Source: Gammaproteobacteria bacterium (GTDB taxonomy: Bacteria; Pseudomonadota; Gammaproteobacteria; Pseudomonadales; Azotimanducaceae). From it: 64,000 bases of DNA. Location: assembly GCA_026707735.1 (NCBI GenBank), contig JAPOWH010000007.1, positions 1-64,000 of the forward strand, given 5' to 3'. This document shows positions 48,249-64,000 of this stretch, piece by piece. Made by a program: the position numbers and the translations under genes. The notes under the pieces were generated by a model, which made no database searches, was not told the DNA's origin, and saw only the letters and a list, made by a program, of their open reading frames with translations. The stretch's first letter is position 1, and every line of letters begins with the position of its first letter.

Positions 48249-48589
48249 TGGCGGGAAATAGATCTGCTTTCGGACGCGATCTTGCGTTAAAGGCAATTTC
48301 GGCAGAATTGTACGGATTTGATTGTCGCGGATACGATTGGCCAGTGCCACTAGCACGACCCAACCTTGCGTTTCTGCGTCCAGAGCGTAGCAATGCGTTG
48401 ATTAACCAATACAATCGGGTTAAACTTACATGTGACGATGCGGGAAAATCTGGATCGAATCGAAGGTGAGCTACTGGCACATCGGGGTCAGTCTCGCCTA
48501 CACCTTCACACATCCATTTGGCACCCGTGTCAATGCCCGGGCGGGTTAGACAAGTAGCAGAGTTCTGCTATACGACAGGGGGAGAAACT

Positions 48590-51004
48590 ATGTTGCAAGC
48601 GCTTCGACGCTTACTGCCATTTGCGATGATCATGTTCGTCGCATCTTTCGCGCCAAACGTGACGTTGGCTCAAAGCACCCAAACGGCCGATGCCGACCAG
48701 GAAATCGACGAGCTCGTTGTTATCGGATCACGCAACACCGCACCACGAACAGTCGAAGACTCGACTGCGCCGATCGATTTCATTAAGTCGGATGATCTGT
48801 CCGCCATTGGCAACACAGCCGACATAACAGACTCGCTACGTTCCGTTGTGCCTTATTTCAATGCCTCGATGGCCTCTGGCGACGGAGACACCTTCGTTCG
48901 TCCAACCTCGCTACGGGGATTGGCACCAGATCAATCGCTAGTCATGATCAACGGAAAGCGTCGCCATCGTGCCGCGCTCATCGCAGAATTTGTCCCGGCG
49001 GCTGGCAAGGGTGCACACGGACCCAACATCGGCATGATCCCGAGCATAGCCATCTCCAATGTTCAGATTTTGCGCGACGGTGCGTCCGCTCAGTATGGAT
49101 CCGACGCTATATCTGGCGTAGTTAACTTTCAGATGAAGCGCAATAGCGAAGGCGGCATGCTCAGAACGCAAGTCGGGCAGTTTTACGAGGGCGAATCCAG
49201 CTTCAAAATCGATGGCAACTTTGGAATGGAGCTTGGAACGGACGGCTTTGCGAGCCTCAGTTTCGAGCGCGTGTACAACCAAGCCCTCTCCCGTGGCAAG
49301 CAACGACCTGATGGCCAAGCACTCATCGACGCGGGCGTAGCCGGAGTGGGACAAGATTCTCCCTTTGAAGACAAGCCTTTCGTGCAGACTTGGGGACGCC
49401 CCAGGAACGACGGATTGCGGCTTTTTCTCAATGCCGGCCACCCTGTCTCCGAAACAACCGACGTGTACGTGCAAAGCAATTACGCAGACGTTCATGGACG
49501 GTATCGATTCTTCTACCGTGGACCGGGACATGCGACTTTGGCTTCGTTGGCTGGATTGGGCTTCACAGGTCTGCCTCAAGGATTCACTCCCTACTTTGAT
49601 GGCGAGACATCGGACTACTCGGTGGTTTCTGGATGGAAAGGAGTCTTGGCTAACGGGACCTACTTCGACGTAAGCGCTGGAGTGGGCAACAACGAGATCG
49701 ACTTTACCCTCTACAACACCATCAATCAGTCGATTGGCTTGAATTCCAACGGTGAACCCCTGCAGCGCGATTTTGATGTAGGCGAGTTGGAACAGACAGA
49801 ATTCTCTGCAAACCTCGATGTAAGCCGTCAGGTTTCGGAAGTGTGGCATGCGGCAGGCGGCTTCGAATGGAGACGGGAAATATTTGGTGTCAAATCGGGC
49901 GTGCCAACTTCCTACGAGGGAGCAGGCTCTAGTGGATTCAAGGGTTTCGAACCCCAGAACGCCGGCACTTTTTCTCGTCATAACATCGCAGCCTATGGTG
50001 AATTTGAAAGGGAATCGGGTGGACTGATCACCCAATACGCGGTGCGCTATGAGGACTATTCCGATTTCGGAGACACATTGAACGGCAAGTTTGCGCTCCG
50101 CTATCACTTCGATGACCGCATTACCGGACGTTTCGCCGTGTCGACCGGCTTTCATGCACCCACGCCCGGACAAGCAAATATTCAGAAGGTAACGACAACT
50201 TTCGACGCCAATGTTGGTGACCAAGTGGAACAGGGGCTCGTCCCCGCCGATCATCCACTGGCCAAGGCAGCCGGTGGCGCACCACTGAAAGAAGAAGAGT
50301 CATTTAACGTGAGTCTTGGTTTCGCCTTCGATCTGGACGAGGTGTTTCAGGATGCGAGAATGACGTTCGACGTCTACGACATCGCGATCAAGGATCGAAT
50401 CTACAAGACACAGACTGTTCCATCCATTGATCCCAACACAGGAATTGGAACGAATGTCTCGTTCTATACCAATGCTCTTGACATTGAATCCAGGGGATTC
50501 GACATTGTGTATACGGCGCCGATCGAGTTCCGCAACTTTTACTCCGATATGAGCATTGCGCTGAGTCGCAATCAAGTTGAAGTCAAGGATCAAAACTTGG
50601 TCAACGGCATCGCACCCGTACCGGTCGCCGACGTCGAAGATATTGAGAACAGTTATCCGAAACTCAAGATCGTTGTCACATCTACGTCTAACCTGAACGA
50701 GAATGCATCATTGATGATTCGGGCCAACTACTATGGCGAACACTACGACGAACGTGGCCGAATCGGTGGGAACCCGCCTACCAAGTTGCTTGATCCAACC
50801 CTCTTCTTTGATGTAGAGCTCCGTTACCACTTTACGAACAGCGTGCGCGGCACCTTGGGCTTCGTGAATATTTTCGACTCATATGTGGATGAAATTTCAA
50901 GCCCCTATGCCAATCGACAAAATGTGGGTCTGCCATACGCACGGCGTACTGCAGCTAATTTCGAAGGAGGGTCAGCATACTTTACGCTGGACTTCACCTT
51001 TTAG
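48590..51004 (+). CDS. TonB-dependent outer-membrane receptor
   Basis: From the ATG at 48590, with GGGGGAG 8 bp upstream, the protein has 804 residues. A signal peptide (about 1-28) ends in TLAQS. A short TonB-box-like segment DELVVIGSR follows, then the plug domain with PTSLRGLAPDQSLVMINGKR and 'VQILRDGASAQYGSDAISGV'. The 22-strand barrel ends in the terminal YFTLDFTF with the C-terminal Phe required for BAM insertion. Substrate unknown. The gene stands alone between the nucleotidyltransferase and a methyltransferase. Confidence 0.95.
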   Translation: MLQALRRLLPFAMIMFVASFAPNVTLAQSTQTADADQEIDELVVIGSRNTAPRTVEDSTAPIDFIKSDDLSAIGNTADITDSLRSVVPYFNASMASGDGDTFVRPTSLRGLAPDQSLVMINGKRRHRAALIAEFVPAAGKGAHGPNIGMIPSIAISNVQILRDGASAQYGSDAISGVVNFQMKRNSEGGMLRTQVGQFYEGESSFKIDGNFGMELGTDGFASLSFERVYNQALSRGKQRPDGQALIDAGVAGVGQDSPFEDKPFVQTWGRPRNDGLRLFLNAGHPVSETTDVYVQSNYADVHGRYRFFYRGPGHATLASLAGLGFTGLPQGFTPYFDGETSDYSVVSGWKGVLANGTYFDVSAGVGNNEIDFTLYNTINQSIGLNSNGEPLQRDFDVGELEQTEFSANLDVSRQVSEVWHAAGGFEWRREIFGVKSGVPTSYEGAGSSGFKGFEPQNAGTFSRHNIAAYGEFERESGGLITQYAVRYEDYSDFGDTLNGKFALRYHFDDRITGRFAVSTGFHAPTPGQANIQKVTTTFDANVGDQVEQGLVPADHPLAKAAGGAPLKEEESFNVSLGFAFDLDEVFQDARMTFDVYDIAIKDRIYKTQTVPSIDPNTGIGTNVSFYTNALDIESRGFDIVYTAPIEFRNFYSDMSIALSRNQVEVKDQNLVNGIAPVPVADVEDIENSYPKLKIVVTSTSNLNENASLMIRANYYGEHYDERGRIGGNPPTKLLDPTLFFDVELRYHFTNSVRGTLGFVNIFDSYVDEISSPYANRQNVGLPYARRTAANFEGGSAYFTLDFTF

Positions 51005-51200: not shown

Positions 51201-51836
51201 ATGCCAGAACTTATAGAAATTCCCGACCCAAACGTATATGTGGCGTACGGGGTTTACTTTCTAAAGGTTAAGCATAAGTTCGTGCAGCGGCTCAAGCGGC
51301 ACCATCAGCCGGGTGCGCACGGCTACCGCACGTGGGGAACAAGCTTTGTACTCATGGACTATCTGCAGCACTATCCTCCGAAGGCTAGGAGCAGAATCAT
51401 GGATGTCGGTTGCGGATGGGCGCCAGTCGGCGTATTTTGTGCAAGCCGCTTCAAAGCAAAGGTCGTAGGCGCGGATATGGACTCGCATGTTGTTCCATAC
51501 ATGGATTTGCTGGCCGCCCTCAATGACGTGAAAGTGGAGAAATTGACAGCTAGATTCGAAAGAATCACGACTAAGCAATTGAGCGAAATGGATCTCGTCG
51601 TTGGCTCCGACATATGCTTTTGGGACGAGATGGTAAAACCGCTCTACAACCTGATTCAGCGTGCTCTACGTGGAGGTGTGTCTCGCATTGCCATAGCGGA
51701 CCCCGGGCGCGCTCCGTTCTTCAAGCTTGCCGAGCGCTGCGGTGCGAAATGGAAAGCCGAACTAACCCCTTGGTATTCGCTCGAACCTAGGCGTCAGAAT
51801 GGAGATGTATTGGAGATTCGCAATCTGGATACGTAA
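51201..51836 (+). CDS. Class I SAM-dependent methyltransferase
   Basis: Rossmann-fold methyltransferase of 211 residues. Motif I is SRIMDVGCGWAPVGVFCA (about 64-81), the acidic motif II VVGADMDSHVV, and 'EMDLVVGSDICFWDE' at about 130 is where a catalytic or substrate motif sits. It resembles the Methyltransf_16 / EEF1A-lysine methyltransferase type in the 'GSDICF' region, but I cannot assign a target. It ends 1 bp before the convergent lipoprotein gene. Confidence 0.8.
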   Translation: MPELIEIPDPNVYVAYGVYFLKVKHKFVQRLKRHHQPGAHGYRTWGTSFVLMDYLQHYPPKARSRIMDVGCGWAPVGVFCASRFKAKVVGADMDSHVVPYMDLLAALNDVKVEKLTARFERITTKQLSEMDLVVGSDICFWDEMVKPLYNLIQRALRGGVSRIAIADPGRAPFFKLAERCGAKWKAELTPWYSLEPRRQNGDVLEIRNLDT

Positions 51837-51837
51837 C

Positions 51838-52527
51838 TTACTTGGATGGCTCGGGGTCGATGAATTCCTTGAGCTGTTTCGACATCGCCACACATGCGGC
51901 CGCCTGAGTCCGCGCAATGAACGGCAACGGAACGATAATCGCCGGCACGAAGCTCATCCCTTTCGCTTCCGAACTAACTTTTCCGGCCGACACGCCACTA
52001 TGTATGTCCCAAATGGTGGCCTCGTAGTTTGACCCGGCCTCCCACGTGAGAAATCCAAAGCACGCCGGCACACCTCCAGTTGCCACAGCGCACTGAACGG
52101 TACCACCTTGGTCGGTGCGTTGCGTGGTTCCGTCTACCCACACGATATAACGAAGATTGATTTCGTCGACTTTTTGCGTGATCTTGTCTTGCTTGAGGAT
52201 GTTCGTCATATCGCCTACTTCGAGTGGCGCTGTGCGCGGCTCGAACCAAGGAAAGAACTGGTCTACAAACTCCTCATTGGATATGACGTTAACCGATTTG
52301 GATCCACTGGACGTCTTGTCGACTAGGCAATCAATGAAAGCTGATTCGGTTTGGTCTTTTCGACTGTCCTTTCGCCCAAGAACTGCGATTGTTTCATGAG
52401 GAAGGATTCCCGTGTCCGCTTCCCGTATCTCTTGCAAAGTGTTTGAGACACACCCAGAAAACAACAATGGAATGAGGGGAATGCATGCGATCAACAATAC
52501 TGTTGATCCTTTTTTAAGGTGTTTCAT
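51838..52527 (-). CDS. Hypothetical lipoprotein, last gene of the envelope cluster
   Basis: From the ATG at 52527 (MKHLKKGSTVLLIACIPLIP) a lipoprotein signal ends in LLFSGC. The mature part is about 205 residues. It contains a possible nucleotide-free alpha/beta segment IAVLGRKDSRKDQTESAFID and later a beta-rich part 'IVWVDGTTQRTDQGGTVQ' and 'GSNYEATIWDIHSGV'. No known family recognised. It overlaps the upstream lipoprotein gene by 4 bp (ATGA), so the two are translationally coupled. Confidence 0.75.
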   Translation of the reverse strand: MKHLKKGSTVLLIACIPLIPLLFSGCVSNTLQEIREADTGILPHETIAVLGRKDSRKDQTESAFIDCLVDKTSSGSKSVNVISNEEFVDQFFPWFEPRTAPLEVGDMTNILKQDKITQKVDEINLRYIVWVDGTTQRTDQGGTVQCAVATGGVPACFGFLTWEAGSNYEATIWDIHSGVSAGKVSSEAKGMSFVPAIIVPLPFIARTQAAACVAMSKQLKEFIDPEPSK

Positions 52528-53150
52528 GGCGATTGTGTACTCCCAATCCAATCATAAACAGCTTGCTGACGGACATACCTAAACGAAATAAAAGCAGCAG
52601 CATCGCGGAAAGCCCCCTTGGTGGCATCCCTTAGCGCTTTGCTCGCACGATCTAGAGGATTGCCATAGTTGTTTCGATTGGCACTACCGTAGCCCTGAAC
52701 CGTCCAATCGTGGATGGATTTTCCAGTTTCAGCGTCCAACAGGCTGATCGCATAGCTTATCCAGACCTCGTAGACATCGTCGCCGCTCAAATGCGGGAGG
52801 CTAATCTGGGTCAGCTCTATCTCAGGAACTATGATCGCAGAAATGCCATCGGGAATGTCATTGAGAGACTCCACTACAACGACATCATCAAAGACTGCCC
52901 CGAATACCTGACTAAACAGGTGCTCCTGCGACTCTCCAATTTCTATTGTGTAGGTACCGTGGCCGGGCACGGACTCTTGATGCACTGTGCTCGCAAGATT
53001 ATCCGAAATGTGCAATCCAACGGTAACGGGAACCGATTCAATCAACGGTTTTGGGATCGCAATAGCCTTGTTCACGTTAGCACCAGACACGCATCCCAAC
53101 ATCCCAAAGCACATCGCGATGACTACTATCGAGCGCTTGGGACCTAGCAT
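52524..53150 (-). CDS. Hypothetical lipoprotein of the envelope cluster
   Basis: I chose the ATG at 53150, which has AGGTAGGT a few bases upstream; it gives a lipoprotein signal MLGPKRSIVVIAMCFGMLGC with the lipidated Cys at 20. The mature 188 residues show 'GISAIIVPEIELTQISLP' and 'EVWISYAISLLDAETGKSIH' followed by WTVQGYGSA. This is a beta-alpha pattern like that of periplasmic lipoproteins that oligomerise at the outer membrane (GNA1162 or TolB-N style; inference). It is 47 bp downstream of the second VWA gene. Confidence 0.75.
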   Translation of the reverse strand: MLGPKRSIVVIAMCFGMLGCVSGANVNKAIAIPKPLIESVPVTVGLHISDNLASTVHQESVPGHGTYTIEIGESQEHLFSQVFGAVFDDVVVVESLNDIPDGISAIIVPEIELTQISLPHLSGDDVYEVWISYAISLLDAETGKSIHDWTVQGYGSANRNNYGNPLDRASKALRDATKGAFRDAAAFISFRYVRQQAVYDWIGSTQSP

Positions 53151-53197
53151 ACAACTACCTACCTTATCGTTCACAATGATTTTCCATCACCTATATG

Positions 53198-54190
53198 CTA
53201 ATTCAATGAGGGCAACGCTACAAATGTTCCGCAGTTTCTAACAGTTAGCAGCCTCATCAGCGAACCGAAGTGGTAGATGTTGAAATCTGCGGATCCCTGA
53301 GTGAAATAGACGGGAAACCCCACGGCATGGATTCGCACTCGACAGTTCCCGTCCGCATCTTTTGGATTGACGATTGCAATTCGATCAACAACATATTCGA
53401 TAGATTGACCTTGATAGTCGTCTCCAAAAACGTAGATGCTAATGCGCTTGTTTGGATCGTAATAGGTATTAATCGCCTCTTCGATTCCCTCGACAGGGCT
53501 TGAATTGGATTGCACCGCCCACGTTCTAAGCCTCTCCACTATGGCGCGCCGCATCATTGGAGTGTCGGCAATCCACTTGCCACGAAAACGTGTAAACATG
53601 TAATCGCCCATGTCATTCATGACTTGAACACCCTTTACCACGGGATAGATGTTCAAAACCTCGTCGACCTTTTGCACTACCAACGGCCAAGCATAAGTCT
53701 TCATGCTGCCGGATGTGTCAATAACGAATATCACGTACTCGCTGTCGACTGTGATGCCACCAATCAAATTGTTCTTTCGAACAGGGTCCGTGCCTAACAG
53801 GCGGATCATTTCGTCAGTAAGCGATTGTTTTGCTCGAGCGAGGTCTACCTGCTTCTCCTCCTGCTCTTTGGTGATTTGCCGAACCGTATCGTAGCGACTG
53901 GTCAATTCGATAAGTTCGTCCTGCAATTCCCGCAATCGCAATAATTCACGTTCGATGTTCTCTTCGGTCTCGATTTTCGTTCGCTCAAGAATTGCTGTTT
54001 CACCCAGAATCTTTTCAATCTCATCCTGACGTTTCGCAATCTGCGCAGCTATGTCCTCAAGTGAGATTTCCAAGATCGTAGGTAGACTAATCTTGGTGAT
54101 CATTAGCAGCATGATGATTGCGCCAAATCCACAGCAGATGACATCCAAGAACGCAAGGCTCAGCTCATTGCCTTCACGTCGTCTTTTCAT
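53198..54190 (-). CDS. Membrane-anchored coiled-coil VWA-domain protein (second)
   Basis: From the ATG at 54190 the protein has 330 residues. The N-terminal membrane helix reads LSLAFLDVICCGFGAIIMLL, with an Asp at 16. A long coiled coil spans about 45-130. The VWA domain starts at about 150 with a MIDAS-like DTSGSM (Asp158, Ser160, Ser162). The usual MIDAS Thr is not evident, while an Asp lies in YVFGDDYQ. The start overlaps the stop of the first VWA gene (ATGA). The helix with its early Asp resembles ExbD/MotB-type stator helices, which fits a MotA/ExbB-type gene two places upstream. Confidence 0.88.
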   Translation of the reverse strand: MKRRREGNELSLAFLDVICCGFGAIIMLLMITKISLPTILEISLEDIAAQIAKRQDEIEKILGETAILERTKIETEENIERELLRLRELQDELIELTSRYDTVRQITKEQEEKQVDLARAKQSLTDEMIRLLGTDPVRKNNLIGGITVDSEYVIFVIDTSGSMKTYAWPLVVQKVDEVLNIYPVVKGVQVMNDMGDYMFTRFRGKWIADTPMMRRAIVERLRTWAVQSNSSPVEGIEEAINTYYDPNKRISIYVFGDDYQGQSIEYVVDRIAIVNPKDADGNCRVRIHAVGFPVYFTQGSADFNIYHFGSLMRLLTVRNCGTFVALPSLN

Positions 54191-55275
54191 GGCCAATCCT
54201 TCGAGGGTGCCATAAACGTCCCGGAAGTAACATGTGCCAAGTTCCAGTATGCACCTGTAGCCCATCGGTCACCTTCCAACGGCAGCATGACAACGTTAAT
54301 GGGAATTCCAGCTGGCAGGGACGGCACGGCTCGCCTGAACATCGCTAACCGCTGGCGACCGTCAACCACTGTGCGTCGGGAGGCTCTGTTTTCCAATGTG
54401 GGCAGTCCGTCTGTAATCAGAAAGATGTTGTCCGGCACAGGCTGCATTTTGGATATGGTCACAAACAACTGTTCAAGATTCGTGCCTTCCGTGGGCGGCT
54501 TATTGCGCAGCGAGTCAATCGCGTCATGAACGGCCTGGGTGTCCGTCGCAGGATGCCAATCTGCCAAACCCACAACCAATTCCGATTCGTTGTTGTATCT
54601 GATTATCTGAAAATTGCTTTCAACGGGAATGTTGGCAACCAACCACTCCGTGGCGTCTACAGCCTGTCTCCATTTCGGAGCTTGCAGCTGCATGGGGACG
54701 GGCATGTGCATTCGACGCCGAATATTCACAAGCGACGAATCCAGCATGCTTGCAGAACCGTCGAGTGCAATCAGTATGTAGCTTCCTCCCATGAAGAGGC
54801 CAGTCAGGTATTGCCTATCACCCTCTCCTTCTATAGCTATGACATCAGGCCCACGATCGGACTCCTCGCGCTCTTGAAGAAGCTTCACTTCTTCCTCTCG
54901 AGTTTCGATTTCGGACTGTTCCCTCTCTAGCGTCTCGCTTTGGTCCAGTGCAATCTTCTCAATTTCTTCAACTGCTTCCTCCTTTTCCTCCACCTCTTCC
55001 TGCAACGACTCGACACGCTCGCGGGCCTCCGCAATGCGGAGCGCCAACTGACCCACGATCTCACGTAGTTCAGCCAGGTCCTGCTCGCGTTCCCGTGCTC
55101 GATAATCCAGCAAGCGCGACTCAGCCAGCTGATCACGGTTGATCGTGCTTATCTCTTCCTCGGTCTGGTGATTGATGATGAGGAAAATCATCACGACGGC
55201 GCCAAATCCACCTGCCATGACGTCCAGGAACGACAACGTAAACACGTTCATTTGACGTTTCTTCGACCTAGCCAT
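54187..55275 (-). CDS. Membrane-anchored coiled-coil VWA-domain protein (first)
   Basis: From the ATG at 55275 the protein has 362 residues. The N-terminal helix is VFTLSFLDVMAGGFGAVVMI with Asp18 at the same place as Asp16 in its downstream paralogue. A charged coiled coil covers about 40-140. The VWA domain follows with a complete MIDAS set: LDGSASM (Asp172, Ser174, Ser176), a Thr in PPTEGTNLEQLF, and an Asp in IFLITDGLPT. The start overlaps the end of the actin-like gene by 8 bp and the stop overlaps the next VWA gene. It likely binds a protein ligand via Mg2+ on the periplasmic side. Confidence 0.9.
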   Translation of the reverse strand: MARSKKRQMNVFTLSFLDVMAGGFGAVVMIFLIINHQTEEEISTINRDQLAESRLLDYRAREREQDLAELREIVGQLALRIAEARERVESLQEEVEEKEEAVEEIEKIALDQSETLEREQSEIETREEEVKLLQEREESDRGPDVIAIEGEGDRQYLTGLFMGGSYILIALDGSASMLDSSLVNIRRRMHMPVPMQLQAPKWRQAVDATEWLVANIPVESNFQIIRYNNESELVVGLADWHPATDTQAVHDAIDSLRNKPPTEGTNLEQLFVTISKMQPVPDNIFLITDGLPTLENRASRRTVVDGRQRLAMFRRAVPSLPAGIPINVVMLPLEGDRWATGAYWNLAHVTSGTFMAPSKDWP

Positions 55276-56539
55276 TTTCGCCAACCGCAATAAGCTGGTA
55301 CGCGATGGAACCAGCCACAATGGAATCGCCAGTTTTGGTTGGAGCTTCACCATGGATGCGTTCACCGTTCAGCAGCACGGTAGCGTGACTACTAGGAACG
55401 ACGACGAGTCCGCGAGCATTCCTCCTTATGGCGAAGTCGGTCGTGCCATCACGCTGGTCCGTAGCAGCAAACTCTGTACCAATCGCATGTGCGATGGATT
55501 GTCTCAACACATGCGTGGCATCGGGAAGAGAGTGCGATTCGTGATGAATTTGGGAGCGTGCCTTGTTCACATGTGGGATTTCTACGTGCAAGGACCGAGC
55601 ATCCGAAGTGCCTTTTGAGGCACTCGTTCTCGAGGCCGCCGCCGCAATGTCGCTGACCGTACAGGAAAAGCACTTACTGCCTTCGTCGTTCAAAGCCTCT
55701 ACGATTCCAGGCAGCGCGGCTGAATCATCGGAGAGCAGCACCGGGCAACCGTGTTCCACTGGAGCCAAAACATCAGTCATTCTCGCTTTCGTTGCCGCTA
55801 CCAATTCGGCACGCGAGACTTCAACCTGCCGTGAGTTGCCCTGATGTTCCACATGTATTACGTGGATGTCTTCGTCAAGCGCCACGAATTCCAGCAATTG
55901 GTTGAAGACCTGCTGCTCAGTTTCGGCGAACTTTCTCGGATCGAATCGAGCGGTATCGAGAAACTTGTCTGTTGCTAGCTTGATCCAGGAGTTCATCAAA
56001 GACAGCAATCCGGTTCGGGGCGCAATGCTGGTACGATTCTTGCTAACGACGTTGTCGACTTGAAGCTTCGTCACCACACTTCGGTGAAGTCCAATTTCGA
56101 CAAAAGCGCATGTGTCCCCAACATCGACGCTCGCGGCTGCGGCAACCCCTCTGTCGAGGAAGTCCAAAACGTTAAGCTCGGCTTGCACCGCTATGCCATA
56201 GAGCAACGCCAACTGAGTATTCGACAAGTCACTCGGAACCGCCACCCACAATTGATCATCGCTGGAAAGTCCGCTCTGCTCCTTCATAGAAAGGAGTTGC
56301 CGATAGACTAAGTCGGCCTGCGTTTCGACAGCGAAACCTGGCGGATGCACTGCGCTCTGATCCATGCGCTGCCAGTATTGGCTCTGTTCGCGATCGGGAT
56401 GCAACTTGATTTGCGCAAGCGCTTCGCTGCCAAAGACAAGAGACTTGGGGTCAACAAGCGCTAACCCGGGCTCGTCGTATACGACCTCGCCATCATCGCT
56501 TAACTTGATGCCGGCATCTGCAAGGTCTAGGATCCACAT
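55268..56539 (-). CDS. Actin/Hsp70-fold protein with C-terminal FHA-like domain
   Basis: 423 residues, apparently cytoplasmic. The first about 280 residues have a disguised actin/Hsp70 layout: MWILDLADAGIKL opening strands, 'LWVAVPSDLSNTQLALLYGI' like the VPASF-type turn, then 'CAFVEIGLHRSVVTKLQVD' in the second phosphate region. ATP-binding residues are not clearly conserved. The last about 75 residues read RRNARGLVVVPSSHATVLLN and GDSIVAGSIAYQLIAVGENG, like a short FHA domain that binds phosphothreonine. It sits between the channel gene and the VWA pair, so a cytoplasmic regulator or assembly platform is likely. Confidence 0.65.
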   Translation of the reverse strand: MWILDLADAGIKLSDDGEVVYDEPGLALVDPKSLVFGSEALAQIKLHPDREQSQYWQRMDQSAVHPPGFAVETQADLVYRQLLSMKEQSGLSSDDQLWVAVPSDLSNTQLALLYGIAVQAELNVLDFLDRGVAAAASVDVGDTCAFVEIGLHRSVVTKLQVDNVVSKNRTSIAPRTGLLSLMNSWIKLATDKFLDTARFDPRKFAETEQQVFNQLLEFVALDEDIHVIHVEHQGNSRQVEVSRAELVAATKARMTDVLAPVEHGCPVLLSDDSAALPGIVEALNDEGSKCFSCTVSDIAAAASRTSASKGTSDARSLHVEIPHVNKARSQIHHESHSLPDATHVLRQSIAHAIGTEFAATDQRDGTTDFAIRRNARGLVVVPSSHATVLLNGERIHGEAPTKTGDSIVAGSIAYQLIAVGENG

Positions 56540-56540
56540 G

Positions 56541-57338
56541 CTAACGAACCTGCAGGTGTCTCAGCAAGTTTTCGTCGCACCAAACCTCAACCGCGATAAC
56601 CGTTTCCTCCTGATAGCGCTGCAGCTGATACACGAAAAACATGATCACGATGCTGATGACCAATGCCACAAAGGTAGAGTTGAATGCCACGCCGAGACTT
56701 TCCGTCACGCCAGCGATGTCTCCTTGAACCGCCTCATAGGCATGCCCCAACGCTTCTCCAATTCCGCGAACGGTGCCAATGAAGCCGATCGAAGGTATGG
56801 CCCAGGCGATATAGCGAATCATCGCCAATTCGCTGTCCAATCGGTCTGCCTCGGCCTCGCACACGGAACGAACGACCTCCGATACGTTCTGGACAGCTTG
56901 CGTTGACTCAAATCGTTGAAGCGCAGTCAAAACAGTTCTTGAAAGAAGCAGGTTCTGGGCTTTGGCGGGCAGGGACTGGATGGGACGCATATAACGTCGT
57001 GCATCTTCCGGTAACACGCTAACTCCCTCGCCTACTTGCAGCACGTCGCGATCGAGCAGTCGTCGTTCCGCCATTGCGGACATGGCTTTCGTTCCCATGA
57101 TCGCGAACGCCCAGAACATCAAGATAAAGCAGGTTTCCTGTTCATAGTCGCGCAGCGTTACGAAGAGTGAGCGTTCCGGAGTGAAGTTCTCGTCGTTCTG
57201 GAGGCGTTCCGCTCGATCCGCAAGAATTTCGTTAGCTGTCGGTCGTATTACGCTCGCATATACCAAATGCACAACGAGTATTGAAATCAACAAGGCGATT
57301 AGTTGGGTCAGTAGCGACGATGCAAAACGTCCCTTCAT
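56541..57338 (-). CDS. MotA/TolQ/ExbB proton channel family protein
   Basis: 265 residues. Four hydrophobic segments: about 9-30, 69-88, 176-192 and 217-238. The third carries AWAIPSIGFIGTVRGIGEAL and the fourth GVAFNSTFVALVISIVIMFF, the ExbB/TolQ signature in which the proton path between helices 3 and 4 is lined by small and hydroxyl residues (Thr189, Thr222). A large cytoplasmic loop lies at about 90-175. It starts 9 bp after the acidic-protein gene stop. In this operon it should form the stator channel with single-helix partners, for which the two VWA proteins are the best candidates. Confidence 0.9.
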   Translation of the reverse strand: MKGRFASSLLTQLIALLISILVVHLVYASVIRPTANEILADRAERLQNDENFTPERSLFVTLRDYEQETCFILMFWAFAIMGTKAMSAMAERRLLDRDVLQVGEGVSVLPEDARRYMRPIQSLPAKAQNLLLSRTVLTALQRFESTQAVQNVSEVVRSVCEAEADRLDSELAMIRYIAWAIPSIGFIGTVRGIGEALGHAYEAVQGDIAGVTESLGVAFNSTFVALVISIVIMFFVYQLQRYQEETVIAVEVWCDENLLRHLQVR

Positions 57339-57347
57339 AGATACTTC

Positions 57348-57743
57348 CTAAATGTCCACTGGAAAGGGCACGGAGATATCTTCAGAAATCTCCTCAGATG
57401 GATTGAAGATTTCTACAATATCCTCCTCGTCGGATCCGTCTTCGTCTGTTTGAGACGATTCTTCTTTTGACGAATCTACTGCCGATTGGTTCTCTGCGTC
57501 GGATTGGTCTGCATTAGACTCGTCCTGCGTTGGTCTAGCGCTAGCACCGTTGTCTGTTTCCTCATCAGCCGAAGAAGGGTTTGCCTCGTCTGTAGACGCA
57601 ATTTCTTCGGAATTAGACGCCTGCTCCTGATCTGTTTGAGAAACAATTGCCGTTGAATTGAGCAAAAGCAAACAGAGTGAAAGGCTCACTAGCGCAACAT
57701 TTCTGAAGCTGAGTCGCTTGCGATTCCTACTTTTATTCAGCAT
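57348..57743 (-). CDS. Small acidic exported or anchored protein
   Basis: From the ATG at 57743 the protein has 131 residues; a frame to 57779 lies inside the neighbouring gene. A signal or anchor helix at about 14-32 (VALVSLSLCLLLLNSTAIV) is followed by about 80 residues of Ser/Asp/Glu/Gln-rich sequence. The only ordered-looking part is the C-terminus, IVEIFNPSEEISEDISVPFP, which may be a docking peptide. Not recognised. It overlaps the upstream PEGA/SUMF1 gene by 11 bp. Confidence 0.7.
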   Translation of the reverse strand: MLNKSRNRKRLSFRNVALVSLSLCLLLLNSTAIVSQTDQEQASNSEEIASTDEANPSSADEETDNGASARPTQDESNADQSDAENQSAVDSSKEESSQTDEDGSDEEDIVEIFNPSEEISEDISVPFPVDI

Positions 57744-59784
57744 ATCGAGCGATTCGAAAACCAACGTCTTGCCTTCCATCTATCCCATAGTCCCGAAATG
57801 ACAATCTCACATCCGTAATCGTTCCGTCCAGGAAACTTGAACCGCGAATTACGTGGTACTCACCTTCCGTCGGGCCTAGTACATTCACAGTGCTATTAGC
57901 TTCTGGCACGGAGTAGAAGTCGTGCATCCATTCCGAGACATTGCCACCGATGTCAAACAGCCCCTTTGAGTTTGGCGGAAACGTCCCGACCGGTGCTGTG
58001 ACCGTGTAGTTGTCGTTGTAATCGAACAGAATTCTGGGGACGACATGCTGCGCCGCGCGATCCGCGTAATTTCCATGCCTTGTTGGAGGTGGAAGGTCAT
58101 CGCCCCATGGAAAGTGCAATAACTCTTGAGCACCATCAACATGACGCGCCGCCCAGGTCCATTCCGACTCTGACGGCAATCTGTAGCCCAACGCAGTTGG
58201 GTTGAATCCAATTACCTTTGCTCCGCGCATTGTGTAGAAGGGTTCCAAGCCCTCCTTTTCGGAAAGAAAATTGCAGTAGAAGGCCGCTTCCGTCCACGAC
58301 ACACTAACCGCCGGCTGGTCGTCCTCATTGAGCGATGACCCTTGGTACATGCCAGAATCATGTCCCGGAGCGAACTCCCGGAAATGCGCGTTGGTAACTT
58401 CACGAGTGCCGATATAGAAGAGTCGGTTCTGGACGGCAGTGCGAAACACTTCGTTTGCTCGTCGACCAGGTTGCCGTCGCGAGGCACCCATAAGTATCGA
58501 CGTTGGCTGCAATAGGACAATTTCCTGACCATCAGGTGTTGTGCGAACCTGCCGTAATGCTTCTAGTCGAGCTTCCTCCAACGTTAGGAGACGAACACGC
58601 AAGTTTTGGGCTAGTCCCGGTTGAATGGTTATGTGATTGCTGTAACCGGCGTAACCTTCCTTTCTTAGTTCCACCGAGTGGTCTACTGCATGCAATGCAA
58701 ACGACTCGTTGCTGACTCCGAGCAGTTCGCCATCCACCCACACTTCCACACCCTCTGGTTCGGTCGTCACAATCAACGTCCCCATGACTTGATCAAGGTC
58801 GAGGTCGAGTGTCTGCCGTTCGCCGGGCTCTAAAGTGATGTCGCGTTCCACTTGTTCATACCCGGCCAGCAATACGCTCAACGTGTGTTTCTCGGTTGGT
58901 TCGACTGATACTGTCAGTGGTGTGGTACCTTGAAACTCGCCATCGATGTTTACACTTGCACCAGTCGGTTGGGAGGTCAACGTCAACACGCCTCCCTTTA
59001 GTTCAAGCTCTACGGGACCCAGCTGAACAACTTGCCCAGCTTCTACATAAATAATGTCTGTCCAATCTGCATAGCCAGACTTGCTAAGTAAGATCGTATG
59101 CTCCCCTGCGAGGACCTCTACTGGGCCAGGTGTCTGAAACCCTGAATCGGTTCCATCGATGTAAACAGTTGCTCCCTCTGGTTTCGTCGGCATAGTGACC
59201 ATTGCCCAGTTTGGGCTTAACTCGACATCAATGGATTGCTCTCGTCGCAATCCTTCAATCTCCTCTTCAATCGATTTTGAGATAAAACGCGGCGCGGTGA
59301 ATTCAAACTCTGTCGTGCCCGCTTCGACGTCCAATTGCAACGGAGTTTTCCCTTTTGCAACGCCATTGACGCTGACGTCAGCTCCGATGGGGTCCGATGT
59401 GATCAAGACGTCACCGGGCAGGCGGACAAGCCTTAATTCGAAGACTTGATCGCCCTCGGGTGCAACTTCGATAGGCATAGACAAATCGTGGTAGCCCTCA
59501 ACTTGAGCACTAACCTGGTAATTGCCCGGACGCAAGAGATAAGTCTCCGCAGTTCGTATCACAATTCCACCAGAGACGTTAACTTTGGTGTCGGCAACAT
59601 TCGACTCAAATCTAACAGCCTTCGCCGTGAACAGAAACCACAGCACTGCGCCTGCTACCACCGCTACCAACAATGTCAAGACTTGGAGCCATGGCACCAA
59701 TCTGCTGCGCCTAGGTGGTCTTGATGGAGTGGGCTTGAACTCCTCCGGTCGTAGAATTGGCGGCGTTTCCGTGTTCATGAGCAA
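57733..59784 (-). CDS. Membrane-anchored PEGA-repeat protein with SUMF1/FGE-fold domain
   Basis: 683 residues. A short cytoplasmic Pro/Arg-rich segment is followed by a membrane helix (about 30-53). At least four PEGA-type repeats follow between about 130 and 400, each with the pattern 'TSDPIGADVSVNG..G.TPL', e.g. 'TLTSQPTGASVNIDGEFQGT', 'VTTEPEGVEVWVDGELLG'. The C-terminal about 250 residues have the SUMF1 fold (IGTREVTNAHFREFA, SVSWTEAAFYCNFLSEKEGL, YRLPSESEWTWAAR, DIGGNVSEWMHDFY, VGFRIAR). The active-site cysteines of formylglycine-generating enzymes are absent, so it is probably a binding module. Likely periplasmic. Confidence 0.85.
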   Translation of the reverse strand: MLMNTETPPILRPEEFKPTPSRPPRRSRLVPWLQVLTLLVAVVAGAVLWFLFTAKAVRFESNVADTKVNVSGGIVIRTAETYLLRPGNYQVSAQVEGYHDLSMPIEVAPEGDQVFELRLVRLPGDVLITSDPIGADVSVNGVAKGKTPLQLDVEAGTTEFEFTAPRFISKSIEEEIEGLRREQSIDVELSPNWAMVTMPTKPEGATVYIDGTDSGFQTPGPVEVLAGEHTILLSKSGYADWTDIIYVEAGQVVQLGPVELELKGGVLTLTSQPTGASVNIDGEFQGTTPLTVSVEPTEKHTLSVLLAGYEQVERDITLEPGERQTLDLDLDQVMGTLIVTTEPEGVEVWVDGELLGVSNESFALHAVDHSVELRKEGYAGYSNHITIQPGLAQNLRVRLLTLEEARLEALRQVRTTPDGQEIVLLQPTSILMGASRRQPGRRANEVFRTAVQNRLFYIGTREVTNAHFREFAPGHDSGMYQGSSLNEDDQPAVSVSWTEAAFYCNFLSEKEGLEPFYTMRGAKVIGFNPTALGYRLPSESEWTWAARHVDGAQELLHFPWGDDLPPPTRHGNYADRAAQHVVPRILFDYNDNYTVTAPVGTFPPNSKGLFDIGGNVSEWMHDFYSVPEANSTVNVLGPTEGEYHVIRGSSFLDGTITDVRLSFRDYGIDGRQDVGFRIARYAE

Positions 59785-59790
59785 TGCGGA

Positions 59791-61356
59791 CTAAATCTGT
59801 TCCTCACAGACAATGCGGACAGGCTCCATGTTTAATTCGACGTTAATTGTTTTGCGGACATCTACCCAGCCGTCCCGGCTGCCAACCAACTGATAGTGAC
59901 CGGGACGCAATTGGAGTTCTCGTCTCTCAAACAATCCGAGGTTGCCCTTGGAACTTAGCGTTACTTCGGTTGCATTGTCCGAGACCAGAACCACCGTGAG
60001 GTGTTGGGAGGCAAATTCAATCAAGCTGGTAAATGCGTCCAAGGATCGATCATATTCGGTACTGTGACCGCGGAGATTCTCTGCTCGTTCCAATATTTCT
60101 ATAGCTTTGCTCAGTTCTTCGTCAGCCGACAACGCACCAGGTCCGTCGAGGACATCCTGCATTTGCTGGGTTACGGTAATGATCTCAAACACGCGTTGCT
60201 TGCCTTTGATCGCGAAATCCAATTTGGCGTCGATCTCGAGAACCTCGTTGTAAGTGTCAAGAGCGGCTTCTAGTTCAAGCAAACTCTCCTCTCTTTGTGC
60301 CCGTTCCCTGAGCTCCTCGATGCGAGAGGCCACTTTGGAAATTGCGCTCTGCTGCAGACCTGTCGTTGCGGCTACGTTGGCAGGCTGGCGTTTCAGCACT
60401 TCGTTAAACAATCTATCGGCTTCGTCGAAGTCTTCCCCATTGAGGGCTTGATGACCTTGCGACAACAATTCATTCAGTTCTTCTTCCGCCTGGGCCAGAC
60501 TAATACGCGAACGTCTATCGTCAATACCCGGCGTTCGCGAATCCAAGTCTTCAGCCTGGGACAGATATGCAAGTGCATCGTCCCACTGGCCTCTCAGCAC
60601 CGCACGATCACTTTCACGTAGCAACTCATTGATCTTCGGTAGATGGCCCACACGCTGCAATCCAATTTGCGCTGCCTGAACGAGCGGCTTAATCGCAGAC
60701 GCGTTTTGAAACGCGACTTGTGCAGCTTCTGCGTCTCGTTCGTGCAACGCAACAGTGCCCGCTTCCATCCATTCGTTGAATTCTTCGTTGACATCGTCCA
60801 GCAATTGGGCCAATTCTTCTAAGGCAGAATTGAACTCGCTCAATGCTAAGTCGTACTCTCCCTGCCCAAACAGAATGTCGCCTTCGTTTGCTTTGTCCAA
60901 TATCGCGTTATAGCGCTCTTGATGCGACTCCGATCCGTACGCATTTTTCTCAAACGTGTCCTGCAGAGCGCTGAATTGCTCGACGATTTCCTCAGCTTGC
61001 GCACGTGCGCGATCCAACTGAGATTCCAAGAATGGAGCCACTTGGTTGTCGTCGTTGGTTGATGGGTCGCTCCGACCACTTGTAGGGTCGCTTGAAGCGT
61101 CTGTCGTGTTGCTGCCAGTCCAGAAACTGGTCACGTCTCGCTGCTGGATCCAAACGAATATCGCAGCTGCACAAGCCACGACAAGTATCCCAGCCAGAAA
61201 CTGCTGTTGACGTGCTGTTACACGAAAACGCGAACGTTGCCGAGACGATGACTCAGATGCTAATTTGGGAACTACCGGTTGTATTTGAACCGGTTTCGCC
61301 GAGCTATCCGTTGTCTTGGAAGAATTCTTCAGTGATGTTCTCCCCAGACTCATCAA
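59791..61356 (-). CDS. Membrane-anchored helical (TPR-like) protein with PEGA-like C-terminus
   Basis: 521 residues. A Ser-rich N-terminal 45 residues precedes a single membrane helix at about 52-70 (QQFLAGILVVACAAAIFVWI). Residues about 110-430 are alpha-helical with TPR-like spacing, for example 'GEYDLALSEFNSALEELAQ', 'GQWDDALAYLSQAEDLDS', 'EDFDEADRLFNEVLKRQPAN'. The last about 75 residues resemble one PEGA module (VTLSSKGNLGLFERRELQLR, HYQLVGSRDGW). The start overlaps the upstream lipoprotein gene by about 50 bp; an ATG one codon later is equivalent. It probably scaffolds the periplasmic part of the complex. Confidence 0.8.
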   Translation of the reverse strand: MMSLGRTSLKNSSKTTDSSAKPVQIQPVVPKLASESSSRQRSRFRVTARQQQFLAGILVVACAAAIFVWIQQRDVTSFWTGSNTTDASSDPTSGRSDPSTNDDNQVAPFLESQLDRARAQAEEIVEQFSALQDTFEKNAYGSESHQERYNAILDKANEGDILFGQGEYDLALSEFNSALEELAQLLDDVNEEFNEWMEAGTVALHERDAEAAQVAFQNASAIKPLVQAAQIGLQRVGHLPKINELLRESDRAVLRGQWDDALAYLSQAEDLDSRTPGIDDRRSRISLAQAEEELNELLSQGHQALNGEDFDEADRLFNEVLKRQPANVAATTGLQQSAISKVASRIEELRERAQREESLLELEAALDTYNEVLEIDAKLDFAIKGKQRVFEIITVTQQMQDVLDGPGALSADEELSKAIEILERAENLRGHSTEYDRSLDAFTSLIEFASQHLTVVLVSDNATEVTLSSKGNLGLFERRELQLRPGHYQLVGSRDGWVDVRKTINVELNMEPVRIVCEEQI

Positions 61357-62572
61357 TGCCCGTTTCGGATTCTAGATCTGCCTCGCCATCATTCTCGGGT
61401 AGACCTAAGTATTCAAAGTAGAGTTGCTTCAAGGTTTCGCGTGCCTTCAAGAACTGCTCGGATGCAGTTCCTTCTAGTCGAATCGTTGAATTCTCAAGTT
61501 CGATCGTATGTGGATCAATTTCCTTGGCCGCCACAACTCCCAACTCTTGCAGAGCTGCTGCGTGGATCTTCATGTTTGCGCGGTTTTGAATTCCGCCGAT
61601 GATCTCGGTAGCTCCGCCTATCACGGAGGCATATCCGGCATATTCGGTTACGGTGCTGCTGCTACGTTGTGCGACGGCCCCTCCAAGAACCATGACGGTT
61701 CCTGCAATCAATCGACTTCGCGACTTGTTCCGTTCCTCGCGTATGGCAATTGCTTCGTTGTAAGTGCCTTCGCGCCAGTTCTTGTACGGACTGCGCATGT
61801 CCCCTGCAAAGCGAGAAAAGTATTCGGCGAGCGTGTCAATTACTAGAAATTCTCGTTCGCGAACCTCACGAACTCGCCGCATGTTCGGATCGTCTGATGC
61901 AGGCAAGCGAACAACCTCGTACTCCTCGCCAGATTTCTCAGCGACATAATCGTCGAACGCGTCAGGATTCATGTCCCGGGCGTATCGCATTAGGGTCGTA
62001 AGTCGAATCTCCTCAATTTCGTCCAGAGAAAGTTCCTCGATGTACTCGAGCATTTCATCTGCCAACAAGCGGTATGTGGTTTGAAACGGCTCAACATTCG
62101 ACGCGACTTCGAGGTCGTAATGGTATTTGCTGGCCAATGTCTCATAGACGCGCTCGAACCAGACTTTGCCGCGAGAATCCTGAACTCGCACTGCCAAGAC
62201 TTGGCGTTCGCCATCTGAATGGAGAATGCCACCAGTCACCAATACATCCACGGCATAGGTGGCTTGCGGCAGTACCCGTACTGCTCCCCAATTACCTGTT
62301 GACTGCAACAGGTCCGATGCGTAACTGGCAATGTAGTTGGCTTCAGCTCTGCGTATCTCCGGCGTGATGTTTCGCGTTACCAAGTCATCGTACGCTTCTG
62401 GGATATTGGATTCGAATACGACCACGCCGACATCAAGCAAGAGATCGTCTGGCAATGCGCGGTCAGAGGTTCTGGGGGCCTGAGTGTCAACCACGCGCAG
62501 AGTAGTGACTGAGCATCCTACGAGGAACAAGCAAATTGAGAGTCCGATGCATAGAACGCTCGCTTTCTTCAT
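61304..62572 (-). CDS. Lipoprotein of the envelope cluster
   Basis: 422 residues. The signal MKKASVLCIGLSICLFLVGC has the lipidated Cys at 20. The mature protein is alpha/beta: 'LLLDVGVVVFESNIPEAYDD', 'WGAVRVLPQATYAVDVLVTG', 'DEMLEYIEELSLDEIEEI'. A hydrophobic Gly-rich stretch at about 290-335 (LIAGTVMVLGGAVAQRSSS) could be membrane-active. It is followed by 'MKIHAAALQELGVVAAKEID' and an acidic C-terminal tail. No known family recognised. It overlaps the upstream gene by 4 bp (ATGA) and the downstream gene by about 50 bp. Confidence 0.82.
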   Translation of the reverse strand: MKKASVLCIGLSICLFLVGCSVTTLRVVDTQAPRTSDRALPDDLLLDVGVVVFESNIPEAYDDLVTRNITPEIRRAEANYIASYASDLLQSTGNWGAVRVLPQATYAVDVLVTGGILHSDGERQVLAVRVQDSRGKVWFERVYETLASKYHYDLEVASNVEPFQTTYRLLADEMLEYIEELSLDEIEEIRLTTLMRYARDMNPDAFDDYVAEKSGEEYEVVRLPASDDPNMRRVREVREREFLVIDTLAEYFSRFAGDMRSPYKNWREGTYNEAIAIREERNKSRSRLIAGTVMVLGGAVAQRSSSTVTEYAGYASVIGGATEIIGGIQNRANMKIHAAALQELGVVAAKEIDPHTIELENSTIRLEGTASEQFLKARETLKQLYFEYLGLPENDGEADLESETGIDESGENITEEFFQDNG

Positions 62573-63744
62573 TTCAGACCCTCGATGTAATCCTCGTAGT
62601 CTTCCCAGAGTTTCTCCTTCAAATCGGGATCCTCTTCGGCCATGGCGGCTTCCCGCAATTGTCGGGCATACACTTCCTTATCTCGAGCATCCGGAGTGTC
62701 CGCAACCGCACGCGTTGTCGGCGGCAGGTTGGGCTGTCCACCATCTCCTTTGTTCGATGCGTCGTTGGTGGCGCCGCTTTCCTCAGTGTTTCCCGAGTCG
62801 GCGGATCCGCCCTCAGTTTGAGACTGGGACTCAGCTTCTTCCAAGCCCAAGGGACCACCCGCGGCAGCGGCACGCTCATTGGCCCGCGCCAAATCATCGT
62901 TACGCTCCTCCATGATCTCGCCATCAAGGATTCCAAGCACTCGTCTCAATTCCGCATCCTCAGGATTTAGGCCGCGATCACCTGCCTCGTCATCAAACTC
63001 TCCTGGAAGTTCTCCAATGCCGCTCTGATCATCTTGCGAGGCCAAACCACCCGGTTCAGGCAGCTGATTGCTGATTTCCCAGCCGCCACTCCTTTCATCG
63101 TCGCTTGTACCCGGCATCGGTGAACCAGCAGGCATTCCTCCTTCGCCAGCATCGTCTCCGTCGCTTGCCTCGTCACCTTCTGGTTCGCTTGTACTTAACG
63201 GTCCACCTGTTTCCAATGAGCCAGGCTCTGGAAATTCCATTCCACCTTCTGGGCCACCCTCGCCTTCTCCTTCTTCCTGATCTTGCTGCGCGCCACCCGT
63301 TGTCGGCATGCCCGGCATGTCAGCATTGGTTGGTCCGTCGCCATCAGTTGGCAATGACGGTGGCGAAGGCATGCCAGTCGACGACTCGGAGCCGGGTAGA
63401 GTGGTACTAGGAGGAATCGGCAATGAGGGGCTGCTTGTAGAAGATGGTATCGGCAGTGACGGCGTTGGCAATCCGGACGACTGTCCCTGACCGGTTCCCG
63501 CTCCGCCAGAGGGCTGAGTACTTGACTGCGAAGGCGGCAACGGGCTTGGCGTGGAACTAGGCAGCTGGATCGTGGGAAAGTTTCGAGGCGTACTTGACAA
63601 ACAGCCGCTCAACAACACAATCGCGATTCCAACCACCAAGAAGCGGATTGGCGTCAATACACGCTTCCTGCGACGACTATGGGTTGCCGTCGAGTCGGCC
63701 AGATTCAATTTGGTTTCAATTGTGTCGAGAGAAACGATGTTCAT
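62569..63744 (-). CDS. Low-complexity lipoprotein of the envelope cluster
   Basis: 391 residues from the ATG at 63744. A lipobox VVGIAIVLLSGC puts the Cys at 48, which makes an unusually long basic n-region. A TTG at 63657, preceded at 6 bp by AGGAAG, would give a standard 18-residue signal. About 200 residues of Pro/Ser/Gly then Gly/Glu/Asp-rich sequence follow. Only the C-terminal about 130 residues look ordered, with helices 'GLNPEDAELRRVLGILDGEI' and RDKEVYARQLREAAMAEEDP. The protein may span the periplasm or cell wall as a flexible tether. Confidence 0.75.
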   Translation of the reverse strand: MNIVSLDTIETKLNLADSTATHSRRRKRVLTPIRFLVVGIAIVLLSGCLSSTPRNFPTIQLPSSTPSPLPPSQSSTQPSGGAGTGQGQSSGLPTPSLPIPSSTSSPSLPIPPSTTLPGSESSTGMPSPPSLPTDGDGPTNADMPGMPTTGGAQQDQEEGEGEGGPEGGMEFPEPGSLETGGPLSTSEPEGDEASDGDDAGEGGMPAGSPMPGTSDDERSGGWEISNQLPEPGGLASQDDQSGIGELPGEFDDEAGDRGLNPEDAELRRVLGILDGEIMEERNDDLARANERAAAAGGPLGLEEAESQSQTEGGSADSGNTEESGATNDASNKGDGGQPNLPPTTRAVADTPDARDKEVYARQLREAAMAEEDPDLKEKLWEDYEDYIEGLK

Positions 63745-63851
63745 TACAGCCTGTTCCCGCCCTCTAGGCTTGATTTCTCAGCTACTACATTTAGAGACAC
63801 CTGCGCGACAACAAGGTTCATTGCTGTAACGCGAAATTTGCCCCCCGAAAT

Positions 63852-64000
63852 CTACTCTCCGCCGTTGACATCCGGAAAGAAGATGTACTCATGTGTCAAT
63901 ATTACCCCGTCTCGGGATGTCCTCTGTCCGTCTCGCATCACGGGACGGTATCGGGCCTCTTCCATTGCAGCCACGAACTCCTCGACAAATCTGTCGTCAG
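63852..64000 (-). CDS. C-terminal end of a protein with TonB-C-like fold (cut by window edge)
   Basis: A minus-strand frame enters from the right edge and stops with TAG at 63852-63854. The 49 visible codons read DDRFVEEFVAAMEEARYRPV then MRDGQRTSRDGVILTHEYIF and end FPDVNGGE. The 'AAM..ARYRPVMRDGQ...GV.LTH.Y.F' pattern resembles the C-terminal domain of TonB-like energy transducers or TPR/TonB-C proteins. Only a fragment is seen, so the call is tentative. It would be the gene immediately upstream of the envelope cluster, 107 bp from the next start. Confidence 0.45.
   Translation of the reverse strand, partial: DDRFVEEFVAAMEEARYRPVMRDGQRTSRDGVILTHEYIFFPDVNGGE

Follow-up and report, generated by a model that had tools for sequence, protein, structure and literature searches.

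In the window analysed here, a stretch of 64,000 nucleotides (bases 1-64000 of the 328,250-base contig C6 of genome G000; 3.37 Mb in 29 contigs), eleven consecutive minus-strand open reading frames (ORFs) at 51838-63744 encode a genuine and conserved envelope machine, most of which is uncharacterised. We read this operon, with a probability of roughly 0.6, as an envelope-spanning proton motor in which the N-terminal helices of two von Willebrand factor A (vWA) proteins, vWA1 and vWA2, are placed in the pore of a MotA/TolQ/ExbB-type channel, and which acts on outer-membrane lipoproteins. As an earlier note on this DNA had described, the eleven genes are tightly packed: all ORFs lie where it placed them, and neighbours overlap or are at most 23 bp apart. 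A twelfth gene, encoding a TPR protein with a TonB_C domain, begins the set 107 bp upstream and lies mostly beyond the window end. In the direction of transcription the order is TPR-TonB_C, lp4, lp3, TPR, PEGA-SUMF1, acidic protein, channel, Hsp70-FHA, vWA1, vWA2, lp2 and lp1, where lp1 to lp4 denote four lipoproteins.

The recurrence of this gene set was evaluated in 176 stretches of DNA: 56 from the host group (54 relatives plus the C2 paralogue and the C9 locus of the host genome itself), 80 from named records (the best 80 of 560 confirmed matches among 594 stretches) and 40 from class and phylum (39 from samples, some chosen for weak matches, and one short stretch of the host genome). Gene order was compared in the 129 stretches whose vWA2 match exceeds 60 bits and is preceded by at least 8 kb and followed by at least 1.9 kb of sequence, leaving out 47; as some places occur in two sets, these 129 loci do not equal 129 independent genomes. 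In 127 of the 129 loci, the genes on the vWA strand stand in the canonical order when compared without the TonB_C and acidic genes, and the two deviants (L249 and L272) carry the channel gene after vWA2. The loci were chosen by vWA match, so that vWA presence is built in, but the presence of the other genes is not: the channel, PEGA-SUMF1 and TPR genes were each found in 128 loci, lp3 in 126 and Hsp70-FHA in 113. One rearranged locus outside the count owing to its short flank (L051, contig C108 of G051) has the three genes Hsp70-FHA, lp2 and lp1 placed between the PEGA-SUMF1 and acidic genes, which looks like the movement of one block.

The association also held when whole genomes were scanned. 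Among 97 genomes, the host's included, all 60 strong Hsp70-FHA profile matches (E-value <1e-40, one per genome; 8 weaker rows, mainly to the FHA part, left out) have a vWA1 match no more than 4 kb away, measured between starts. The strong Hsp70-FHA list and the vWA1 list name the same 60 genomes, the latter having been picked by hand: three contig-edge fragments (G021, G026 and G052) were retained in it along with one match of a shorter locus type, type B (G047), and 18 weaker rows taken as second, type B copies were dropped, including the sole match of G013. In a class sample of 369 genomes, again with the host, the vWA2 profile matched 28 at E <1e-80, covering 16 families besides the host's own, and 7 further matches were weaker or partial. 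A phylum sample of 398 genomes, host included, added 15 others at E <1e-70 and 3 weak ones; 13 of these 15 belong to a single family outside the class, and the Hsp70-FHA gene was present in none of the 9 loci (of 13) fetched from it. Named carriers among the matches listed are Halioglobus, Parahaliea, Seongchinamella, Kineobactrum, Microbulbifer, Marinibactrum and Chromatocurvus; none of the 80 named loci comes from an Idiomarina record. A scan of named genomes with a single vWA1 sequence had given no match, whereas the vWA2 alignment later matched many.

The loci fall into two types. Hsp70-FHA is absent from 16 of the 129 loci, only one of which has lp1 and lp2; lp1 was found in 89 of 113 loci with Hsp70-FHA versus 1 of 16 without, and lp2 in 93 of 113 versus 1 of 16. 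Both occur in the host genome: the window carries the full type, and contig C2 (L040) the shorter type B. From 133 complete loci, the 125 non-identical ones were used for trees of the channel, vWA1, vWA2, PEGA-SUMF1, TPR and lp3, all of which contain an identical 19-locus clade with supports of 0.86-1.00; of 22 loci without Hsp70-FHA, three (L157, L238 and L240) fall outside it. Pairwise tree-distance correlations among the six genes were 0.84-0.96, to which shared species history contributes. A paralogue clade common to six gene trees indicates that the unit has been inherited and duplicated together. Order, trees and the constant proximity of Hsp70-FHA to vWA1 thus bear out the proposal of the earlier note that the gene set forms a unit.

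The proposed motor core consists of the channel and the two vWA proteins. The channel protein matches MotA_ExbB (PF01618) with 59 bits (cut-off 22.9), and its residues Thr189 and Thr222 are conserved in all 126 aligned sequences. Searched against the Protein Data Bank, the channel profile matched TolQ at an E-value of 0.004 and aligned the two residues with threonines in the GTV and ATA stretches of TolQ, which we take to be its pore threonines. A crude hydropathy cut found two helices in the channel; four are visible by eye. vWA1 matches VWA_2 with 34 bits (cut-off 27), and the same family was found in 9 of 19 vWA2 homologues at an E-value of 0.05. Both vWA proteins begin with a mostly basic stretch followed by a helix of the pattern SFLDVxxxGFGA; from the basic stretch, the vWA domains are expected to face the periplasm. 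The aspartate of this helix is Asp48 in vWA1, conserved in 121 of 126 sequences (four gaps, one Ser), and Asp41 in vWA2, conserved in 125 of 126 (one Ala), while the DxSxS motif is present in 126 of 126 for both. Solved structures matched by the vWA2 profile were mainly coiled-coil proteins by name (best E-value 0.007). Several features of 5:2 motors are thus present, namely an A subunit of the MotA_ExbB family, conserved threonines and a single-helix partner with a conserved aspartate.

The conventional partner of such a channel was searched for throughout the genome. Of eight MotA_ExbB matches, those on contigs C18, C25 and C7 adjoin ExbD matches, while those in the window, on C2 and one on C9 do not; of six ExbD matches, five adjoin other channels and one adjoins none. 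This ExbD scan found no ExbD/TolR gene beside the channel of the window or its C2 paralogue, and neither PF02472 nor MotB_plug was matched in the operon proteins. MotB_plug gave no match in the whole genome either (4 of 14 controls gave a match), so the usual flagellar stator is probably absent from it. A hidden ExbD, TolR or MotB partner beside the channel was therefore rejected, in agreement with the earlier claim that the channel comes without an ExbD/TolR of its own.

A motor of this kind has been put forward before (PMC12204202; Mol Biol Evol 2025, msaf138; reference organism Idiomarina loihiensis; this and the other papers are cited here from excerpts of their text). It comprises vWA proteins with a pore helix and a conserved aspartate, encoded mostly as heterologous pairs beside tolQ-like genes without tolR or exbD, and AF3 models set the vWA aspartate helices in the TolQ-like pore with the aspartate in the threonine ring. 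Likened by description, these TPH-vWA motors share with the operon the TolQ-like channel, the heterologous vWA pair, the helix aspartate, the absence of ExbD/TolR and the occurrence in Proteobacteria. A motor core of this kind has thus already been proposed, and the statement of the earlier note that this is not a described system is not upheld in full. No description was found of the surrounding machine, which has two types of locus and includes Hsp70-FHA, PEGA-SUMF1 and TolB-like parts. In the excerpts of PMC12204202, section 8 mentions neither PEGA-SUMF1 nor Hsp70-FHA proteins for this family, and no lipoproteins, TolB-like or otherwise; the main text contains PEGA, SUMF1 and sulfatase zero times and FHA once. 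For the full operon, no description was found in the open-licence literature, and Fig. 4c of that paper may draw some of the neighbours; the terms von Willebrand and VWA are absent from the excerpts of PMC12505986 and PMC9389320.

That the vWA proteins are instead side transducers of the TonB/TolA kind, or regulators, while another single-helix protein fills the pore, we consider quite unlikely. The first vWA family of PMC12204202 is of such a kind, bound at the motor's edge, the acidic, TPR and PEGA proteins of the operon also have one hydrophobic segment each, and comparing the profiles of the vWA helices and ExbD gave a negative result. However, a near-invariant aspartate stands at the start of the vWA helices and none is found in the PEGA and TPR helices of the window, nor does any ExbD lie nearby. 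The conserved aspartate and the gene context also support the suggestion of the earlier note that the vWA proteins are the likely single-helix partners of the channel.

Four lipoproteins were predicted and four were recovered. Cys34 of lp1 (26 of 26 aligned sequences), Cys28 of lp2 (30 of 30) and Cys20 of lp3 (61 of 61) are invariant, all at the lipobox position, and lp4 has the lipobox LLSGC in the window copy and a lipobox-like pattern in 69 of 108 homologous ORFs. lp1 and lp4 gave no Pfam match; for lp2, LptE was matched in 3 of 30 members (best E-value 0.004), and the profiles of lp1, lp2 and lp3 matched nothing among solved structures below an E-value of 0.1. The AlphaFold model of lp3 (predicted local distance difference test, pLDDT, 88) consists of a small alpha/beta domain and two long helices of 74 and 46 residues. 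Its best Foldseek match is TolB/Pal (E-value 3.4e-4, probability 1.00), and eight of the ten best matches are TolB and two are LptDE entries. lp3 is thus predicted to carry a domain that resembles TolB-N by fold.

Besides channel and lipoproteins, the operon encodes further proteins. The PEGA-SUMF1 protein matches PEGA with 194 bits and FGE-sulfatase/SUMF1 with 128 bits, and the TPR protein matches TPR_2 with 28 bits and has its hydrophobic segment at residues 52-70. The possible TonB-C neighbour of the earlier note proved to match TPR_12 (39 bits) and TonB_C (30 bits). Counts for the acidic protein are soft, because its family model is low in complexity. Among NCBIfam models, the SUMF1 domain is best matched by GldK/PorK (E-value 3.4e-22); among solved chains, formylglycine-generating enzyme (5e-15) comes before PorK (2.8e-9). 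The domain has one conserved cysteine column (Cys504, 119 of 126), and the position of what we take to be the RCAxR-like motif of formylglycine-generating enzyme reads RLSFR. The identity as such an enzyme was rejected, as the catalytic cysteine pair is missing.

The GldK/PorK match raises the alternative of a secretion or gliding motor like GldKLMN/PorKLMN of type IX secretion, in which the channel and the vWA pair would replace GldL/GldM and the SUMF1 protein and the lipoproteins would form a GldK/GldN-like ring under the outer membrane. GldK is described as a lipoprotein of the outer membrane, part of a ring complex driven by GldLM (PMC8986121), both systems combine a proton motor with an envelope protein of SUMF1 fold, and in the C9 cluster of the same genome a SUMF1 protein likewise has a channel and an Asp-helix protein as neighbours. 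We nevertheless regard this alternative as unlikely, given that the GldK score of 79.3 bits is far under its cut-off of 350, that formylglycine-generating enzyme chains are closer, that the SUMF1 protein here bears an N-terminal anchor and PEGA repeats rather than a lipobox, that the motor partners are vWA proteins and that no outer-membrane pore gene was seen in the operon. The GldN model gave no match in the host genome, and its controls were equally silent.

The C9 cluster (L041, G000:C9:170000-189000, ORFs 11329 down to 4861, minus strand) is a third channel cluster in the genome. It encodes a MotA-type protein of 345 aa, a 182 aa protein with a hydrophobic segment, a 585 aa protein with an aspartate in its N-terminal helix (LVDILANGVAVLV), an anchored SUMF1 protein that was matched along two stretches, and a protein homologous to the one with TPR and TonB_C. 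Apart from the host, 16 of 17 genomes of the genus and 1 of 40 others searched carry the 585 aa protein.

The protein called actin/Hsp70 plus FHA in the earlier note stood up well to structure prediction. Its AlphaFold model has a pLDDT of 94, and its best Foldseek matches are Hsp70s (E-value 1e-16, TM-score about 0.6 by query length). The Pfam FHA family was matched in 6 of 61 homologues (best E-value 4.7e-13) and not in the window copy. Asp8 and Asp/Glu148 are each kept in 59 of 61 homologues. We judged the nucleotide site by the Gly-rich phosphate-loop motifs that we presume for Hsp70/actin ATPases: the nucleotide-binding-domain fold is shared with these, but the loops are not kept, with glycine at positions 10 and 150 in only 18 and 13 of 61 homologues, respectively. 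As the loops are mostly without glycine, the protein is expected to be a pseudo-ATPase, and with no hydrophobic segment it is probably cytoplasmic.

Zorya employs a MotA-type channel, and the ZorA2 model matches the channel of the operon at an E-value of 8.6e-4, so that a defence motor of the Zorya kind, against phage or stress, was weighed as well. It appears very improbable. In the PADLOC scan of ten operon proteins (acidic and TonB_C proteins left out) no other Zorya model was matched, and the remaining matches, to LmuB and JetC, fall on the vWA coiled coils with E-values of 0.006-0.007. The operon is present in 60 of 97 relatives and inherited as a unit, as opposed to the patchy occurrence of defence islands. 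vWA2 gave no match on plasmids; the channel gave three distant plasmid matches (Rhizobium, Anabaena and Microcystis), and the two examined, those of Rhizobium and Anabaena, were ruled out as copies of this operon, their neighbours being other gene sets.

These other sets and one further locus are as follows. On the Rhizobium leguminosarum plasmid NZ_CP125637.1 (L318, 9638-12431), the channel is accompanied by ORFs that by eye are PP2C-like and FHA-like and by a protein with a similar helix (SVLDLFASALGGF). On contig C1 of G185 (L269, 11750 down to 7122, minus strand), a MotA-type channel occurs with an FHA protein, a PP2C phosphatase, a vWA-like protein whose helix bears an Asp (SALDLFASAMGAF) and a protein combining trypsin-like and FHA parts. 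Both sets suggest phospho-control of Asp-helix motors elsewhere too. On the Anabaena cylindrica plasmid NC_019773.1 (L319, 8539-10405), a distant MotA-type channel of 466 aa with a small following protein adjoins CRISPR genes of type III-B and is perhaps a defence motor; a viperin gene lies a few kb further along.

From these data we propose the following mechanism for the operon as a proton motor. By analogy with the family, five copies of the MotA/TolQ-type protein would form an inner-membrane ring, with one vWA1 helix and one vWA2 helix in its pore. The observed aspartates of the vWA helices would carry protons past the conserved threonines of the ring, and proton flow would turn or cock the vWA pair. 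The vWA domains, held on periplasmic coiled coils, may then grip partners through their metal site; such partners would be the PEGA-SUMF1 and TPR proteins of the periplasm and the lipoproteins of the outer membrane. lp3, because of its TolB-N-like domain and long helical hairpin, suits a pulled load and would be the foremost partner. On the cytoplasmic side, the Hsp70-fold/FHA protein may gate or assemble the motor, probably by binding phosphothreonine. The trans-envelope layout of the earlier note is supported, and its interpretation overall is partly supported. The output is most likely remodelling of the outer membrane or surface beyond the cell's own Tol-Pal; motility or secretion is possible.

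Several results weigh against this proton-motor reading. While the domain calls of the earlier note for the channel, vWA1, the PEGA/SUMF1 protein and the TPR protein were confirmed by the Pfam scores given above, vWA2 alone reaches 15 bits with VWA_2, under the Pfam cut-off. In hhalign comparisons with ExbD, the two vWA helices gave E-values of 0.022 and 0.042, a control helix 0.025 and other controls 0.056-0.29; being no better than the control helix, sequence homology between the vWA helices and ExbD was rejected, and a functional parallel alone is kept, because of the conserved aspartate and the gene context. The match of lp3 to TolB covers 152-175 columns of its 422 residues, a single match is below an E-value of 0.001, and whole-model TM-scores are 0.16-0.20, because only one domain aligns. 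Pfam searches of the 61 lp3 homologues gave only single-member matches up to an E-value of 0.05, leaving the TolB likeness without sequence support. Since loci without Hsp70-FHA mostly also go without lp1 and lp2, these proteins are not needed for the core. Finally, the operon is tied to no phenotype so far. PMC12204202 states of its related first vWA family that deletion phenotypes have not been reported.

Two further known systems resemble the proposed motor in part. With Tol-Pal (TolQRAB-Pal) the operon shares a channel related to TolQ (TIGR02796, 32 bits, cut-off 221), the TolB-N-like fold of the lp3 N-domain, lipoproteins and a TPR protein; it differs in that no TolR was matched in the operon and no Pfam match names TolA or Pal. 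On contig C18 of the same genome, channel, ExbD and TolB_N matches stand in a row, the only TolB_N match being there; with this separate locus, read as Tol-Pal, the operon is not the genome's only such system. The AglRQS-Glt gliding machine of Myxococcus likewise has one channel, two different Asp-helix partners and a trans-envelope complex (PMC9389320). In contrast to the vWA pair, however, AglQ and AglS are described as MotB homologues, and the vWA protein of that system, CglB, is a surface protein (PMC13104615).

The features of the operon are collected in Table 1. Homologues of vWA1 start near Met31, which corresponds to an ATG at 55275. Downstream of lp1, a convergent methyltransferase gene lies at 51201-51836 on the plus strand (lysine-methyltransferase match PF10294, 24.6 bits), and in many loci convergent ORFs of about 210 aa occupy the same place, as judged by position and size only. 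At 48518-51004, also on the plus strand, an 828 aa ORF resembles a TonB-dependent receptor by eye. In another locus (L121:12310-13764), lp1 is followed by a gene for an M48 metallopeptidase (121 bits); many other loci have, after lp1, an ORF of about 450-540 aa that is comparable to it in size and strand.

Table 1. Genes of the operon, with positions in the window and the basis of each assignment.
Feature	Position	Strand	Basis or remark
lp1, lipoprotein, without Pfam family	51838..52551	-	in-frame ATG at 52527
lp2, lipoprotein, faint LptE-like signal	52524..53174	-	conserved Cys28
vWA2, N-terminal helix with Asp41, coiled coil, vWA domain (DTSGSM)	53198..54265	-	alignment
vWA1, N-terminal helix with Asp48, coiled coil, vWA domain (DGSASM)	54187..55365	-	VWA_2 34 bits
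Hsp70-FHA (ACT/FHA), Hsp70-fold protein, C-terminal FHA domain, degenerate phosphate loops	55268..56539	-	AlphaFold, Foldseek, Pfam
MotA/TolQ/ExbB-type channel subunit	56541..57338	-	PF01618 59 bits
Small acidic Ser/Glu/Asp-rich protein, one N-terminal hydrophobic segment	57348..57779	-	ORF, hydropathy, composition
PEGA-SUMF1, anchored PEGA repeats, then SUMF1-fold domain	57733..59784	-	PEGA 194 bits, FGE-sulfatase 128 bits
Anchored TPR protein	59791..61356	-	TPR_2 28 bits, hydrophobic segment 52-70
lp3, lipoprotein with TolB-N-like domain (by predicted fold) and long helical hairpin	61304..62572	-	Cys20, AlphaFold, Foldseek
lp4, Gly/Ser/Pro/Glu-rich lipoprotein	62569..63744	-	lipobox LLSGC, composition
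TPR + TonB_C gene, 3' end	63852..64000 (contig 63852-65153)	-	TonB_C 30 bits

More tentatively, the operon may represent a distinct machine of at least twelve parts, in which the heterodimer of metal-binding vWA proteins serves as axle in the pore and as arm on TolB-like outer-membrane lipoproteins, a pseudo-Hsp70/FHA protein provides phospho-control and a stripped-down second version is kept in the same genome; it would then be a general further route for proton energy beside TonB/TolA and GldM. Few routes carry proton energy to the outer membrane (TonB, TolA, GldLM and Agl), and the operon, if the proposal is true, would be another. Its carriers include named marine bacteria such as Halioglobus, Parahaliea, Seongchinamella, Microbulbifer and Marinibactrum, and several of these records are titled as strains, which makes its role open to deletion tests. 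The conserved gene set, moreover, narrows the search for the load of the vWA motor, which the proposal in PMC12204202, as excerpted, leaves open.

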